Origin: Roseimicrobium gellanilyticum
GTDB lineage: Bacteria; Verrucomicrobiota; Verrucomicrobiia; Verrucomicrobiales; Verrucomicrobiaceae
Assembly: GCF_003315205.1 (NCBI RefSeq)
Contig: NZ_QNRR01000002.1
Location: forward strand, 280,881 to 344,880
DNA: 64,000 nt
Direction of reading: 5' to 3'
Every line of letters begins with the position of its first letter. The first letter of the stretch is position 1. The notes below the pieces were generated by a model. The model saw only the letters and a list, made by a program, of their open reading frames with translations, was not told where the DNA came from and ran no database searches. This document shows positions 2,891-55,606 of the stretch, piece after piece. Both the position numbers and the translations under genes were made by a program.

Positions 2891-2938
2891 CCCCCGCTCT
2901 TGACTTCCCGCCCCAGATCCCCCACACTCCCAGCACAT

Positions 2939-5222
<2,284 letters not shown>

Positions 5223-13705: not shown

Positions 13706-14056
13706 CCTCACCTCCACACCGCCTCTACTTAAAAAAGAGACGGTAGGGATGCGCTCCTGCGCATCCGCAGATAGCGGGCGGAGGCGGTGGGAACATGCCA
13801 CGTGACACGGCCATTGCATGCCGCACCTCCACACCACTTCGCCGCTAAAAAAAGAGCGGTAGGGATGCGTTCCTGCGCGTCCGTAGATCGCGGGCAGAGG
13901 CGGTGGGAAGATGCCACGTGGCACGGCCATTGCATGCCGCACCTCCACACCACTTCGCCGCTAAAAAAAGAGCGGTAGGGATGCGCTCCTGCGCGTCCGC
14001 AGATAACGGGCGGAGGCGGTGGGAAAATGCCACGTGGCACGGCCATTGCATGCCGT
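13706..14056. repeat. 116-bp tandem repeat, three copies
   Basis: The unit begins CGGTAGGGATGCG at 13741, 13857 and 13973, giving an exact 116-bp period; a partial unit precedes the first copy. Each unit carries a hairpin GGATGCGC-TCCT-GCGCATCC (13747-13766 in copy 1; the later copies keep pairing through G-T wobbles), and copies 2 and 3 contain the 12-bp palindrome TGCCACGTGGCA (13912-13923 and 14028-14039). A GCCGCTAAAAAAAGAG segment joins the units. Preserved pairing suggests a structured or protein-bound element rather than neutral duplication. Confidence 0.85.
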
Positions 14057-14112
14057 CACACATGCTCCTGCGCGTCAAACTAAGCAGCGCATCAAAACCA
14101 GCTCTGCAACTC

Positions 14113-14479: not shown

Positions 14480-14893
14480 ATGAGATTCCTGATGATGATG
14501 ATCCCCCGTGGCTACCAACCTGACACCCCCGCCTCCGAAAAGCAGGAAGACGGCTACCAGCCCACCGCCGAGGAAATGACCCCCATGGGTAAATTCAACG
14601 ACGACATGGAAGCCGCCGGCATCCTCCTCACCGTCGATGGCCTCCACCCACTCTCCCGGGGCGCCCGTGTGACCTTTCCCCAAGGCAACGCCACCGTCAC
14701 CGACGGTCCCTTCATCGAAACCAAGGAAGTCATCGGCGGCTTTTGGATCATCCAGGTAAAATCCAAACAAGAAGCCATCGACTGGGCTCGCCGCTGTCCC
14801 GCCCTCAACGGCGATGTCATCGAACTCCGCGAAATCTGGGAGATGGAAGACCTCCCCGCCGAAGTGCAGAAAGCCGCTGTCCATCGCCAGTGA
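14480..14893 (+). CDS. YCII-related (DGPF) domain protein, first copy
   Basis: A 137-aa protein from ATG 14480 (MRFLMMMIPRGYQ). It has the DGPF signature, VTDGPFIETKEVIGGFWIIQV, near residue 75. YCII-related proteins have a ferredoxin-like dimeric fold of unclear activity and are the standard genomic partners of ECF42 sigma factors, here encoded 830 bp upstream. The frame remains open upstream to 14225, but that part crosses repeat DNA and is not protein-like. Confidence 0.88.
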   Translation: MRFLMMMIPRGYQPDTPASEKQEDGYQPTAEEMTPMGKFNDDMEAAGILLTVDGLHPLSRGARVTFPQGNATVTDGPFIETKEVIGGFWIIQVKSKQEAIDWARRCPALNGDVIELREIWEMEDLPAEVQKAAVHRQ

Positions 14894-15171
14894 CACCCCG
14901 CTACAGGCCCGTTGTCTCATTTCCCTCCTACAGATAAACACGCGACTCTCAGCGACTATTTTAACACTTGTTTAACAATCACATCGAAAATAAAATATGC
15001 ACAACTCTCCGTGCCCTATGCAACGCTCCGCTGCCTCCCTCCCAGAAATCTGCAGTGAACCCCATCACCCGCTGCGCCTCAACGCCTTGCTAAAATGATA
15101 GTTCGTTTGGCCAAAATCTGACTTTTCCCAACTCACCATCATCCATCCCCACCACTAGGAAACCACCCACC
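14894..15171. promoter_or_regulatory. Upstream region of second DGPF gene with dyad and conserved motif
   Basis: Compared with its flanks this 278-bp region is AT-rich and contains the dyad TTGTTTAACAA (14968-14978) and the 20-mer GATAGTTCGTTTGGCCAAAA (15097-15116), 56 bp before the start codon. The identical 20-mer and an equivalent TTGTTAAACAA dyad lie upstream of the sulfatase gene (52824-52843 and 52987-52997). Shared control by one regulator is inferred. Confidence 0.55.
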
Positions 15172-15561
15172 ATGAAATACATCTGCCTTGGCTACATTGA
15201 GTCCCACAAGTTTGAGAACATGTCCGAAAGCGAACGCAACGCGATGGTCGACGAATGCCTCGCCTACGATGATGTGCTGAAGAAGAACGGCCACTTCGTC
15301 GGCGGAGAAGGTCTACAGGGCCCCACCAGCGCCGCGACCCTACGCTGGCAGGATGGCCAGGTCGCCATCACGGATGGTCCCTATGCTGAAACGAAAGAAC
15401 AGATCGGCGGCATCCTCATTCTCGAAGCCCGCGACTTGAATCACGCCATCCAGCTCATGTCCAAACACCCCGGCGTAAAAGCAGGTCCCTTCGAGATCCG
15501 CCCCGCCGCAGACATGAGCGACATGGTGCAGGAGAGTGAAGCAAGAAGGGGTGGGAAGTAA
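15172..15561 (+). CDS. YCII-related (DGPF) domain protein, second copy
   Basis: A 129-aa protein starting MKYICLGYIE with the family motif ITDGPYAETKEQIGGILILEA near residue 70 and a C-terminal PFEIRPAADM. It is a paralogue of the gene at 14480 and a second partner of the ECF42 sigma factor. A CACCATG start lacks a strong Shine-Dalgarno sequence. An upstream shared 20-bp motif may control it separately from the first copy. Confidence 0.9.
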   Translation: MKYICLGYIESHKFENMSESERNAMVDECLAYDDVLKKNGHFVGGEGLQGPTSAATLRWQDGQVAITDGPYAETKEQIGGILILEARDLNHAIQLMSKHPGVKAGPFEIRPAADMSDMVQESEARRGGK

Positions 15562-51234: not shown

Positions 51235-52677
51235 CTACCGGGCGGCAGATTTGGCCTTGTTCGCATTCTTGCGGGCTTTGCCGGTTGCATTCAGCTTTGC
51301 GCGCTCCTCCTCGGTGGGTGGTGTGAACTCAGCTACCGAAGGAGAGTCCACTTTTAGCGGCGCATCATCGCCTACTTCCTTTTGCAGCGACGCGAGCTTC
51401 TTCATCAGGGCTTCCACACGCTCGGCTTGCTCTGGCTGGGTGGCGAGATCATTCACCTCACCGGGATCATCTGACAGGTCGAAGAGCTGTGTCTTGTCGA
51501 CCTGTGGGAAGCGGATCAACTTCCAGCGATCTTCACGGATGGCACGCTGTGTGTTGGTGTAGGAAAGGAAGAGCGCATCACGCACCGAGTCCTCTTTGCC
51601 ATCGATGACGGGGGTCAGGCTCAGGGCATCCATGCCTTGCGGCTTCGTGGCGCCTGCGAGATCGCAGATGGTCGGCATGATGTCCATGAGGTAGCACAGT
51701 GCCTTCGTGCGTCCTTGAGGGATTCCCGGTCCCGCGAAGACCAGCGGCGCGCGGAAGCCATCGTCATACACATTCTGTTTTCCCAAGAGACCGTGGCTGC
51801 CCATGCCGAGTCCGTGATCCGAGGAGAAGATGATGATGGTGTTCTCTTCCAGTTCGAGGGACTTCATCGTGGCCAGCAGCCGTCCGATGTGTCCGTCCAT
51901 GCAGGAGATGACGGCATAGTACTCGTGCAGATGCTGGCGCACGACATCCGGCGTGCGGGGGAAGGGGGCGAGCAGCTCATCCCGCACGGTGTTGGAGCCG
52001 ATGTTCCACGGGTGCTGCGGTGCGTAGTTCTCCGGCAATGGGATGGCATCGCGATCATAGAGCTTCAGGTAGGGCTCTGCGGCCACGCGCGGATCGTGCG
52101 GATTCCCGAACGCGAGATACATGAAGAAGGGGCGCTTCTTGTCCCGCTCCTGCGTAAGGAATTTAATCGCTCCATCCACATAGTCGCGCCCTGGTTCGCC
52201 ATTCAGGCGCTCTCCCTGATCATCGTGGATGTAGTTGTTGTGTTCGAAGGTGGCCTGGATGTTTGTGGCCGTGTTTCCCTTTTTGCCGAGGTGCCAGGTT
52301 TCGTAGCCCGCGCCCTTTAGTGCCACGGGGAGATTCGGTCCATCCGCGGGGGCGAGGTTTTGTCCCTTCCAGCGGAAGTAGGTGCGTCCGCTCAGCAGCA
52401 TGTTCCGGCTGGGTGTGCACACAGCGCCAATGTTCGCACCCAGGCAGAAGGCATTGTCAAAGGTCATGCCCCGCTTCACGAGTGTGTCGATGTTGGGCGT
52501 CTTCACCACCGGATGCCCCAGCGCGCCAATGCAGTCGGCGCGCATGTCATCCGTGAAAAGGAAGAGGATGTTGGGCTTGGCCGGACCTGCTGCCTGCGCG
52601 CTGGTGGTGTGCAGGATGGAGAGCACAGTGACGGCGAGAACCTTCAGAAAATTGTGCAAAAGTCGGCGGAGCTGCAT
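51235..52677 (-). CDS. Secreted type I (formylglycine) sulfatase
   Basis: A 480-aa protein from ATG 52677 with a signal peptide (residues 1-29). LFTDDMRADCIG supplies the Ca-binding Asp pair. GAVCTPSRNMLLSGRTYF contains the CxPxR motif in which Cys becomes formylglycine. SDHGLGMGSHGLLGKQNVYD closes the metal site. It resembles planctomycete/verrucomicrobial choline- or glycan-sulfatase groups; the substrate is unknown. The frame remains open upstream to 52971 without protein-like content. Its upstream region holds a motif shared with the second DGPF gene. Confidence 0.93.
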   Translation of the reverse strand: MQLRRLLHNFLKVLAVTVLSILHTTSAQAAGPAKPNILFLFTDDMRADCIGALGHPVVKTPNIDTLVKRGMTFDNAFCLGANIGAVCTPSRNMLLSGRTYFRWKGQNLAPADGPNLPVALKGAGYETWHLGKKGNTATNIQATFEHNNYIHDDQGERLNGEPGRDYVDGAIKFLTQERDKKRPFFMYLAFGNPHDPRVAAEPYLKLYDRDAIPLPENYAPQHPWNIGSNTVRDELLAPFPRTPDVVRQHLHEYYAVISCMDGHIGRLLATMKSLELEENTIIIFSSDHGLGMGSHGLLGKQNVYDDGFRAPLVFAGPGIPQGRTKALCYLMDIMPTICDLAGATKPQGMDALSLTPVIDGKEDSVRDALFLSYTNTQRAIREDRWKLIRFPQVDKTQLFDLSDDPGEVNDLATQPEQAERVEALMKKLASLQKEVGDDAPLKVDSPSVAEFTPPTEEERAKLNATGKARKNANKAKSAAR

Positions 52678-53115
52678 GGCGATGTAAAATGTGCGCAGGA
52701 GGCGAGTTTGGGACACTGCATGAAACGAAGGTGATGCGGGCACCTTTCCTCGCCGGGGGCATTCCACAGGGTTGGCGGCGGGAACGCAATACTCCTGGGC
52801 TCTCATCCGGCAGAAAAATCGAGTTTTGGCCAAACGAACTATCGTTTGCAGGCTAGTTGCTTGATTTTCAGCAAGCCATGCGATGGCCTTTTGGACATTG
52901 CCGAAGGCAGTTCGTGATAGGCTGACGGGAAGAGGTACCAACACATGAGGAGGAGGCAGTTTTCCATTCAATTTACGCCAATATGTTTGTTAAACAAACG
53001 TTGAATTGAGTGCACTCAGGAAGCTGCCTCATTGAATGATGTACGATAGTCTGACGCGGTAGTCCGCTATTGTCTGCGTCCCTGAGCCGTGCCCTGAAGG
53101 AGCGACGCTTGCCGA
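52678..53115 (-). promoter_or_regulatory. Upstream region of the sulfatase gene with two dyads
   Basis: No gene is seen in these 438 bp. On the minus strand the 20-mer GATAGTTCGTTTGGCCAAAA (52843-52824) lies 147 bp before the sulfatase ATG. Further up is the 15-bp dyad GTTTGTTAAACAAAC (52985-52999), enclosed in a larger imperfect palindrome from GAGGCAG (52953) to CTGCCTC (53030). The 20-mer is identical to one at 15097-15116. An operator for a shared regulator is inferred. Confidence 0.55.
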
Positions 53116-53274
53116 TCAGTCCAGCTGGCCCAAGGTCCGAGCCCAGGTGAGAGCGTAGTTCTCTGCAAAATCTTCGCGTCGGCTCCTGGAGGACTTCTCG
53201 ACAGTCCTGCCATCCTTCACCCGGCCACCCTGGGTGAGGCCGATTTTTCGGCTGCGGCGTGGTGGGTTTTGCAT
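53116..53274 (-). CDS. Possible 52-aa basic protein
   Basis: From ATG 53274 the frame encodes MQNPPRRSRKIGLTQGGR and further basic residues, ending TWARTLGQLD. No family is recognised. It starts 46 bp after the terminator of the HMA gene, and no clear Shine-Dalgarno is seen. It may be a real small protein or chance. Confidence 0.35.
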   Translation of the reverse strand: MQNPPRRSRKIGLTQGGRVKDGRTVEKSSRSRREDFAENYALTWARTLGQLD

Positions 53275-53319
53275 GGAAGTTTCGGCGAGTATCCCACGGG
53301 ACGCTTGGTATTCCACACG

Positions 53320-53356
53320 AAAAAACCGCGACCCTTGTTAGAGTCGCGGTTTTTTT
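53320..53356. terminator. Bidirectional intrinsic terminator
   Basis: AAAAACCGCGAC and GTCGCGGTTTTTTT form a strong stem with A/T runs on both sides, so it can act on either strand. It lies 37 bp downstream of the HMA-domain gene, marking the end of the minus-strand metal cluster. Confidence 0.88.
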
Positions 53357-53392
53357 GCCTGAGCTATACGCAGCATCAACGATTGGAGGTCG

Positions 53393-53716
53393 CTACTGAA
53401 GCTTCTCCAGATCCAGGAGGGTGAAGCTCCTGGCGTCTTCACCCAGTGCCAGGATGGCAGCCTCCTTGGTGATATCTGCGGAGGAGGACTCAATGCGGAC
53501 CTTCTGCACCCCTGTTTCAGAGGTGCTGGTGATCTTCACTTCCGCAACGCCAGCGAGTTTGCGGAGTGATGCTTTCACCTTGCCTGCACAGGCGCCGCAA
53601 AACAGGCCTGTGATGCGGCCCTCATAGACATGAGCGGCTGTGGCTTTGTCCCCAGCCTTGAGGTCCGGCATGATGCCAAGAATCAATGCAACGATGGTAA
53701 GAATGAATCGGGTCAT
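53393..53716 (-). CDS. Exported heavy-metal-associated (HMA) domain protein
   Basis: A 107-aa protein with a signal peptide (MTRFILTIVALILGIMPDLKA) and one HMA domain. The metal motif is LFCGACAGKVKASL (C-x-x-C), where MxCxxC is usual, so Met is replaced by Leu-Phe. It resembles periplasmic MerP-type metallochaperones. It is the last gene of the minus-strand cluster, after SCO and cytochrome c, which points to copper. Confidence 0.83.
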   Translation of the reverse strand: MTRFILTIVALILGIMPDLKAGDKATAAHVYEGRITGLFCGACAGKVKASLRKLAGVAEVKITSTSETGVQKVRIESSSADITKEAAILALGEDARSFTLLDLEKLQ

Positions 53717-53749
53717 ATTTTGGATGTGTGATTTTGGAGTGTATTCTGT

Positions 53750-54454
53750 TTATGACGCAGGCTCGTCCAACAGCTTCTGGACGTCCTGTTGGAGGCGCTC
53801 GCGCATCAGGCTTGCGATCTCCGGTTGTGAGTGGAAGACGGCGTAGTACCCACGCACACACCCGCTGCGGTCCACCAGCACGATGCGGAGATCATGCATG
53901 TGGGTATCGAGCGGGTTGAGTTGCTCTTCCTGGGGAATGGTGGCAGCGGGTTCAAGCTGCAACCCCCCGGTCATGAATGCCCACAGGCTGGATTGCTTCC
54001 CGGTGAGGAACCACCAGGGAGCAGTCTCATCCAGGCCTATGCCTTTCGCGTATGCCGCCAGCATCTCCGCGGTGTCGCGCTCGGGAAGCACCGAGATCGA
54101 CACCTGATGGAAGTCACTGCGCGAACCGTAAGTACGATGAAGTTTCAGCATTTCACCGATGACGGCCGCGCATCCGTGCGGGCACACGGTGTAGAGGTAG
54201 GCGATAGTATGCACTTTCCCGCGGAGATCTGACATGCGCACCTGTTTCCCGGTCCGTTCGTAGGCCTCAAGGTCACGGGACACCGTATGAAAGCGGGGAA
54301 GTGACGCAGGCGACCGGAATCGTTGGTTCAAGACCCGGTAGAAGACTGTGGCGGCTGCCACAATCATCAGACAGACAGTGACCACAACGATCCAGAAGCG
54401 GGTCGCGTTGAATCCCGTGGAGATGCCCTTGGGCGATTCGCTGTCGGCATTCAT
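53750..54454 (-). CDS. SCO1/SenC-family copper protein
   Basis: A 234-aa thioredoxin-fold protein anchored by one N-terminal helix (FWIVVVTVCLMIVAAATVFY). The copper motif is TVCPHGCAAVIGEM (CxxxC), and the distal His ligand is in DTHMHDLRIVLVD. SCO proteins deliver copper to the CuA site of cytochrome oxidase or act as thiol reductases. The ATG overlaps the stop of the cytochrome gene as ATGA (54451-54454), so translation is coupled. Confidence 0.88.
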   Translation of the reverse strand: MNADSESPKGISTGFNATRFWIVVVTVCLMIVAAATVFYRVLNQRFRSPASLPRFHTVSRDLEAYERTGKQVRMSDLRGKVHTIAYLYTVCPHGCAAVIGEMLKLHRTYGSRSDFHQVSISVLPERDTAEMLAAYAKGIGLDETAPWWFLTGKQSSLWAFMTGGLQLEPAATIPQEEQLNPLDTHMHDLRIVLVDRSGCVRGYYAVFHSQPEIASLMRERLQQDVQKLLDEPAS

Positions 54455-54936
54455 TCCACGGAGATCCTCAGGAGTTCCGCCTCGGTCCACGGAGTGGACC
54501 GGGCCTTTTCAGTGCTGCGAATCGCCGCCACTTGCTCCGTAGTGACTGGTGGTGCTGAGTTTCCAAATGAGCTTCGGATGTACGTCAGCACATCCGCGAT
54601 TTGCTGGTCGCTGAGCGTAGCCTGTGGTGGCATCAGCGGCGCAGGCGTTACAAATGGCTTTCCATTCACCGTGATGGGACCGGTGATGCCGTGCAGGATC
54701 ATACGGATCAGGCGGTCAGGCATCTTTGACTTCACCCAATCTGAGTCTGCCAGAGGTGGAAACATGCCGGGCAGGCCTTGTCCGGCCGGCTGATGACAGG
54801 CGAAGCAAACCGTCATGTAGATTTGCTGTCCCGCATGCTTTTGAGCTTCGAGAGCAGGGTCCTGACCTTGTAGTTGCAGGGGCGCAAAGAGAAGAATTGA
54901 GGTCGAGGCGATAAAAAGTATATTCGTATTGTGCAT
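54451..54936 (-). CDS. Monohaem cytochrome c
   Basis: A 161-aa periplasmic protein from ATG 54936 with a signal peptide (MHNTNILFIASTSILLFAPLQ). Haem attachment is MTVCFACHQPAGQGLPGMFPPL (CFACH), and a likely axial Met is in PAPLMPPQATLSDQQIADVLTY. It fits the small cytochromes that pass electrons to terminal oxidases or nitrite reductases. Coupled to the SCO gene by a 4-bp overlap. Confidence 0.9.
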   Translation of the reverse strand: MHNTNILFIASTSILLFAPLQLQGQDPALEAQKHAGQQIYMTVCFACHQPAGQGLPGMFPPLADSDWVKSKMPDRLIRMILHGITGPITVNGKPFVTPAPLMPPQATLSDQQIADVLTYIRSSFGNSAPPVTTEQVAAIRSTEKARSTPWTEAELLRISVE

Positions 54937-55169
54937 GGAAAAACAAAAAATGTGAATGGATAGCGGTAGTGAGGCGCGAACGTGAAGCACGAGCGCGGGG
55001 GCGAGACCTATCCGAGCTCCGAGCCGGATGGCAGTCGAATGCATTGGCGCAGCATGGCACTCGCAACGCGTGCGAGGAGAGCGCCGATTGGAGCCGGGCA
55101 GGTCGCGGCGTGATGGTGTGTTTGACCGTTCCACATGTCAGGAACGCACACCAAACAGGCGCGGTGCGG

Positions 55170-55580
55170 CTACGCGTTCTGGATAGCTCGTGGAGGCGGC
55201 GTTGCGGGTCTGGCCCTGCCTTCTCCTCTCAAGGAGGCGGTAAAGTAAAGACGGGCCTTGGTGGATGCTTCGGGAAATGGAGGCGTCACCTTGAAGGCGC
55301 CCTCCCAAGAAGGGTCATACCATTTGAGGGTCAGGTCCGTTTTCTCCTTTGAGATCGGAGCTTTGTTTTTGCCTGCCTCGTTTTGTGATTCGCGCAGCTT
55401 CAAGCACATGGGACAAGGGCGTTCTCCACTGAAGGTTTCCTTGAAACCTTCCACAAGACCCTTCTCTTCCGAATAGTCTTGTATCATCCGCGCCCAGGCA
55501 ATTGCTTGCAGCATGCCCCAGTGTCCCCCGATGGAAATCATCAGGGAAACAACCAGGGCGATGCGTGCAAGCGACTTCAT
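55170..55580 (-). CDS. Small membrane-anchored CxxC protein, paralogue 1
   Basis: A 136-aa protein with one N-terminal hydrophobic helix (IALVVSLMISIGGHWG). It shares GHWG-x-LQ, AWA-x-MI, EKGL and the ETFSGERPCPMCLKL motif (CxxC) with the protein at 60011-60406. The pair brackets the TonB receptor. The CxxC sits outside the membrane by prediction. Metal or thiol chemistry is suggested, family unnamed. Confidence 0.72.
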   Translation of the reverse strand: MKSLARIALVVSLMISIGGHWGMLQAIAWARMIQDYSEEKGLVEGFKETFSGERPCPMCLKLRESQNEAGKNKAPISKEKTDLTLKWYDPSWEGAFKVTPPFPEASTKARLYFTASLRGEGRARPATPPPRAIQNA

Positions 55581-55606
55581 GACAGTAGCAATAGCACGAG
55601 GGCGTC

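Follow-up and report, generated by a model that had tools for sequence, protein, structure and literature searches.

The window, a stretch of 64,000 nucleotides, contains the 20-mer GATAGTTCGTTTGGCCAAAA at 15097-15116 on the forward strand and at 52824-52843 on the reverse strand, exactly as the original prediction had described it. These are the only two copies in the window, no further ones being found at up to three mismatches, and 100 dinucleotide shuffles of the window gave 0 matches. One copy precedes a gene for a YCII-related (DGPF) protein and the other a sulfatase gene (Table 1). We measured 55 bp from the 20-mer to the YCII/DGPF ATG (15172) and about 146 bp to the likely sulfatase ATG (about 52677), in agreement with the 56 and 147 bp given previously. 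A TTGTTWAACAA dyad had been noted about 120 to 145 bp upstream of each copy; the dyads TTGTTTAACAA (14968-14978) and TTGTTAAACAA (52987-52997) are the only exact matches to this pattern in the window.

Table 1. Features at the two motif copies in the window, with the corresponding regions in the same-genus genome G001.
Feature	Position	Strand	Basis and remarks
Class-1 box TTAACACTTGTTTAACAATCACATCGAAAATAAAAT of copy 1	14957..14999	+	Profile 24.4 bits (in training set); pattern match; promoter-like by eye only
Core of copy 1, AAATGATAGTTCGTTTGGC	15093..15111	+	One mismatch to the family core; includes the first 15 bases of the 20-mer
T-rich tail of copy 1, weakly conserved	15112..15127	+	Column counts; mean pairwise identity 0.47 over 28 copies
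Gene downstream of copy 1: YCII-related (DGPF) protein	15172..15561	+	Pfam PF03795, E 4.9e-21
294 bp between the G001-aligned stretches of two YCII/DGPF genes (68 bp in G001)	14878..15171	+	Extra DNA with box and core
Class-1 box of copy 2	52964..53008	-	Profile 31.4 bits (in training set); pattern match
Core of copy 2, AAACGATAGTTCGTTTGGC	52829..52847	-	Exact family core
T-rich tail of copy 2, weakly conserved	52813..52828	-	Column counts; pairwise identity
Gene downstream of copy 2: sulfatase	51235..52677	-	Pfam PF00884, E 5.4e-48 on 51235-52674; start codon is the authors' reading
2.8 kb without counterpart here in G001 (92 bp there)	52798..55606	-	Edge about 27 bp past the 20-mer end of copy 2

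We searched the window's own genome (G000; 7.93 Mb in 32 contigs) with the 20-mer at up to three mismatches and obtained 22 matches. The flanks of these matches revealed that the conserved part begins further to the left than the 20-mer does. The 19-mer AAACGATAGTTCGTTTGGC, allowed up to two mismatches, has 28 sites in G000 and 0 in the reversed control; a 20-mer with one more base on the left recovered the same 28 sites at up to three mismatches, with 0 at three. Eighteen of the copies match the 19-mer exactly, six have one mismatch, and the four with two mismatches have ...GTTCTGC in common. The window copies are loci L042 and L024 of this family. Three of the first 22 sites (L008, L010, and L018), which lie in coding frames and have no AAAC, were dropped as chance matches; the other 19 are among the 28. 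L008 and L010 each have 16 exact bases in common with the core region, which is above the chance expectation and counts against dropping them; by eye only, we put this likeness down to the protein sequence at these places. The copies are spread over 16 of the 32 contigs, and the list of sites, judged without a formal test, gives no appearance of clustering in one chromosome region or on one strand.

Column counts over the 28 copies show that positions -4 to +14 are almost invariant, followed by weaker T-runs at about +19 to +22 and +26 to +30. Pairwise identity averages 0.95 across the core but 0.47 across the tail and 0.32 past it. The partly matching flanks of the two window copies, reported earlier, are thus real and correspond to the T-rich tail, which is weak across the family. 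The palindrome TTTGGCCAAA, which had been taken for the core, does occur exactly twice in the window, both times here; however, it is not the conserved part, and we rejected it as an operator because only L024 and L042 among the 28 copies read so. The sole strong symmetry is the dyad AAACGA-TAGT-TCGTTT, with at least six pairs in 19 of the 28 copies. In the other nine it is shorter (two pairs in L042, three in L041, L043, L044, and L046, and five in L047 to L050). The dyad, of 2 to 8 pairs across the copies, is internal; MITEs are defined by terminal inverted repeats together with a target-site duplication. None of the 28 cores contains a GTAG or CGTC tag on either strand, and up to 10 bases away from the dyad the only tag is CTAC (GTAG on the opposite strand), in two of the copies. 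A search of the 28 loci of about 3 kb for a second core, at up to five mismatches on either strand, returned nothing beyond the core's own opposite strand. LexA, sigma-54, and flagellar-sigma sites were considered and do not fit the core, as judged against consensus sequences only.

The 19-mer at up to two mismatches is absent from 37 relatives, including the complete genome G001 from the same genus (the reversed control has one match in each of two of these genomes), and at up to one mismatch it is absent from another 287 genomes of the order, which were sampled evenly from a larger group and overlap with the 37. Exact scans of a species-genome collection and of viral contigs, which used 19-mers one base apart and may leave out records of the window's own genome, gave three matches, in one Polynucleobacter MAG, one Balneolaceae MAG, and one viral contig. 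All three lie in unrelated DNA and were judged to be chance. A core-like sequence near 5.38 Mb in G001 (E 0.27 and 0.034 with two profiles) differs at three of 19 bases and was also judged to be chance; nothing better was found with the core profiles on 2.0 Mb of G001. In the open-access full-text literature, we recognised no paper that describes this repeat.

Two of the 28 copies lie inside open frames, in a gene for a protein with DUF7133 and HEAT repeats (L031) and in a family-9 glycosyltransferase gene (L045). Among the remaining 26, a supported co-directional gene follows the copy in 21 (20 supported by Pfam, and L048 by conservation in G001), an unsupported open reading frame follows in two (L040 and L046), and three copies point against the neighbouring genes (L033, L041, and L044). 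With strand left to chance, a split of 21 to 3 has a two-sided binomial probability of about 0.0003 (a hand calculation that leaves out the two unsupported cases). At L034, the supported gene begins 660 bp away, with a 144-aa antisense open reading frame without a Pfam match in between. Some copies with a co-directional downstream gene also follow another gene; at L027, L032, and L043, the upstream frame ends on the TAG of the core as its stop codon, and the frame at L032 has no Pfam match. The downstream genes include those for three PSCyt cytochromes, a DUF1552 protein, the sulfatase, YCII, MetH-like, MurC-like, and SMC-like proteins, L19 (rplS), LspA, a LolA-like protein, H+-pyrophosphatase, acyl-CoA dehydrogenase, MacB, ABC transporter proteins, a halogenase-like protein, and a GDSL hydrolase; by Pfam they have no common functional theme.

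The genome-wide scan with its downstream genes, which had been proposed as a check on a repressor or activator shared by the two promoters, gives a divided answer. The match is not a chance one, the copies lie mostly upstream of genes in sense orientation, and an upstream box is tied to the core (see below), whereas a site private to two promoters, with TTTGGCCAAA as its operator, finds no support in view of the 28 copies, the presence of that palindrome in two of them only, the functionally unrelated genes behind them, the two copies in coding frames, and two that lie in about 35-36 extra bases. A dispersed repeat located mostly inside or downstream of genes had been set against the original prediction; the motif is dispersed, but it is located mostly upstream instead.

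For the comparison with G001, we fetched 2.0 of its 7.96 Mb (about a quarter) and the loci found in searches, which placed homologous DNA in hand for 11 of the 28 sites (L024, L026, L027, L031, L032, L041, L042, L045, L048, L049, and L050). The core is present in G001 at none of the 11, which follows from the whole-genome search. Four of the sites are spanned by the alignment. In the smc leader (L049), both sides align to G001, and about 35 extra bases in G000 contain the core; the CTTTT tract after the core is already present in G001. The glycosyltransferase gene (L045) is 36 bp longer, in frame, than its G001 counterpart, with two-base differences on each side; the stretch is also missing in G002 and G012, and the site is a variable linker. 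No target-site duplication was obvious by eye at L045 or L049. L031 and L032 show the replacement of a similarly long patch, not an insertion; T-rich sequence is already present in G001 at L032. At L024, L027, L042, and L048, DNA that is additional to or differs from that of G001 extends through the core, and homology begins again only 46-75 bp past its GATAG (about 618 bp in G000 versus 40 bp in G001 at L048; Table 1 for the two window loci). L041, L050, and the like are too diverged from G001 for an insertion to be judged. The 2.8-kb block that is absent at this place in G001 carries HMA, SCO1/SenC, and cytochrome c genes (53393-55134, reverse strand).

Two kinds of box recur upstream of the core. 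The class-1 box, with the consensus TTYAACRCTTGTTTAACAANTATATCGGCATAAAAT by eye, lies 136 to 189 bp upstream of the core in nine copies (L024, L025, L028, L029, L035, L037, L039, L042, and L048); L028 and L029 carry short versions, with profile E values of 0.03 and 0.02. Used as a 20-mer pattern with up to three mismatches, the box has six matches in G000, all six of which adjoin a copy of the core, as found with a pattern that misses boxes at the level of divergence seen in L028, L029, and L037, so that coreless boxes may exist unseen. The reversed control has two matches in G000, and ten relatives have 0 to 4 each. A profile built from the nine boxes added no new site within the 28 loci; the window gave just its two known boxes, and 2.0 Mb of G001 gave nothing. 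Because a consensus scan of both window leaders found no sigma-70 promoter, the word promoter for the class-1 box is our reading only.

The class-2 box, GGTGTAYAGTCACC with at most one mismatch, lies 30-75 bp upstream of six copies, and a degenerate one was seen by eye at L041. It has 11 sites in G000, five of them without a core (one in the reversed control), and nine in G001, all coreless; the G001 control has five, so that part of the nine is perhaps chance. Given the coreless sites in both genomes, the class-2 box seems older than the repeat; the class-1 box was seen only together with the repeat. The spacers between box and core look unrelated among the copies by eye, and the coupling of box and core is therefore not the simple copying of one long unit. 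For the class-1 box, this coupling is the remaining unexplained fact, and random insertion does not predict it.

Some of the exact class-2 sites in G001 lie, as judged by eye, before small HTH-type genes. Separately, in both G000 and G001, GGTGTATAGTCACC or GGTGTATAGACACC directly precedes small genes that look to be of HTH or RHH type (L248, L249, L255, L257, L266, and L259); with the domains guessed by eye, this sequence is perhaps a candidate operator of mobile or self-regulating genes.

We considered whether the core could be an operator. A species-specific dimeric DNA-binding protein would bind AAACGA-TAGT-TCGTTT in leaders and repress or activate about 25 genes, and the box TTYAACRCTTGTTTMAACAA would be the promoter region of part of this regulon. 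The core is far more constrained than the tail, the dyad reaches at least six pairs in most copies, and the supported co-directional genes in 21 of the 26 copies outside coding frames and the six class-1 matches that all adjoin a core are as such a site would have them. CIRCE, the leader operator of HrcA, is likewise an inverted repeat between promoter and start codon; here, however, the genes have no common function, no known repressor is at hand, and the element belongs to a single genome. The search for a regulator found none, the dyad is shortened in nine copies, two copies lie in coding frames and three point against their neighbours, and it is implausible that point mutation produced a 19-base sequence at 28 places, identical in 18. 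We therefore regard the operator as an unlikely account of the whole family.

The core could also act at the mRNA level, where a short hairpin and the U-rich stretch behind it would affect stability or processing or be the target of a small RNA. The sense orientation would suit such a role, as would the copies between consecutive co-directional frames in which the core supplies the stop codon of the upstream frame, and a hairpin of -3.7 to -10.5 kcal/mol is predicted in all 28 copies, displaced by some bases in L044. However, changes in the dyad break pairs and do not compensate for one another, the one G-C exchange (in L045) lying just outside the dyad, and Rfam has no match at the two core sites in the window at gathering thresholds. 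An extended hairpin was rejected: the flanks add no stem beyond chance, with permuted left flanks averaging -7.06 against the observed -6.94 and 355 of 500 permutations as low or lower. On this balance, a leader RNA element is improbable. The only Rfam match in the window is a TPP riboswitch at 2932-3041 on the forward strand (68.7 bits against a gathering score of 54.3).

That the core is the right-hand end of larger mobile units, whose opposite end or internal promoter would be marked by the class-1 and class-2 boxes, might account for the extra or different DNA at L024, L027, L042, and L048, but it is very improbable given that the upstream DNA is common to G001 at L031, L032, L045, and L049, that the box-to-core spacers look unrelated by eye, and that the 28 loci hold no second core, inverse or direct.

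We conclude that the motif probably forms the core, almost without variation, of a small dispersed repeat, which spread in this species once the lineage had separated from its nearest sequenced relative. Copying is needed because a sequence of 19-20 bp cannot otherwise recur 28 times, and the 28 near-identical copies in G000, their absence from the relatives searched, and the extra bases at two places all argue for a repeat. Against this stand the small number of insertions (only L045 and L049, whose edges show small differences, with exact ends uncertain by several bases), the replaced patches at L031 and L032, the lack of a linked transposase, the tie between the class-1 box and the core, and the box-to-core spacers that look unrelated by eye. 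The reading as a dispersed repeat is firm, its mobility is likely, and it may now serve as a control element.

The repeating unit would comprise about 20 bp that are fixed within roughly 31-36 bp that are inserted. It may move as short hairpin-forming DNA, most likely through an HUH/Y1 (RAYT-like) enzyme as proposed for REPs, and would settle in pyrimidine-rich gene leaders beside a T-tract. From the two sites L049 and L032 we infer that landing beside such tracts could produce the sense-strand bias without selection. Selection or ongoing copying would preserve the core, with variation in the tail. About 16 copies are joined to one of the two upstream boxes, so that the repeat has probably turned into, or was from the start, part of a control element in leaders. 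Both the strong conservation of the core and its coupling to the class-1 box speak for a function.

Y1_Tnp (Y1 transposase) matches number 13 in G000 and 17 in G001. One of the 13 lies within about 1 kb of a core, at L046, which is one of the 28 copies. This Y1/RAYT-like gene (L046:402-1421, contig C22) is followed by a class-2 box and then the core, at most about 85 bp past the gene end; it scores 47.1 bits with Pfam Y1_Tnp (cut-off 23) and 66.6 bits with NCBIfam NF047646, below the cut-off of 80. At six other Y1 loci of G000, the core search gave nothing beyond a 6-bit profile match (E 0.81).

Very small insertions that bring no transposase of their own are known from Nostoc, whose small dispersed repeats (SDRs) are 21-27 bp long; the repeat described here differs in its coupling to upstream boxes and its bias for leaders, and its sequence is not known to be related to theirs. 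Rickettsia palindromic elements insert in frame into protein genes, as at L045, but they are larger (100-150 bp), and 26 of the 28 copies here lie outside coding frames. REPs are dispersed hairpin-forming sequences of 20-40 bp, sometimes species-specific and at times inside genes, which lie predominantly downstream of genes and for which movement by Y1/HUH (RAYT) transposases has been proposed (PMC3733652, PMC3116915; the latter also names SDRs in passing). The present repeat resembles REPs and REPINs in being small, dispersed, hairpin-forming, and found in one species whose genome encodes Y1_Tnp-like proteins. It differs in its lack of a GTAG/CGTC tag, in having a single core per locus without inverted doublets, in its copy number, which is low for a REP, and in its location mostly upstream of genes in sense orientation. 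Since copying is needed, short insertions are seen, and such copying has precedent in the genus, we place the repeat beside REPs and SDRs, although it fails the REP features of tag, doublet, and location.

Other short repeats occur in these genomes. In 1.6 Mb of G001 (L128-L167 and L184-L223), we found dispersed short repeats of 26 families, each family being a 15-mer at no fewer than five separate places; one looks GTAG-tagged (CAACGTAGCTCGCGAGTCCCTTCGCGAG), and none of the 26 listed families resembles the core by eye. In the window, three adjacent 116-bp direct repeats at 13730-14077 are another dispersed repeat family of the group, with units that recur at dozens of G001 positions and at several in G012.

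A further, tentative possibility is that a two-part control module, made up of the promoter-like box and the 19-bp leader core, spreads through one species by short insertions and forms a regulon with a species-specific regulator. If so, a whole regulon over unrelated genes, including those for a ribosomal protein, the cell wall, methionine, chromosome structure, and cytochromes, would have been assembled after this species diverged from its nearest relative. The rewiring of transcription could plausibly proceed quickly through short repeats that enter gene leaders. This case offers nearly all of the copies, a reference genome of the same genus that has none, short insertions at smc and in a coding gene, and two upstream boxes, of which one was seen only beside the repeat; with strains of the species, the turning of a short repeat into a regulatory site would be directly testable.
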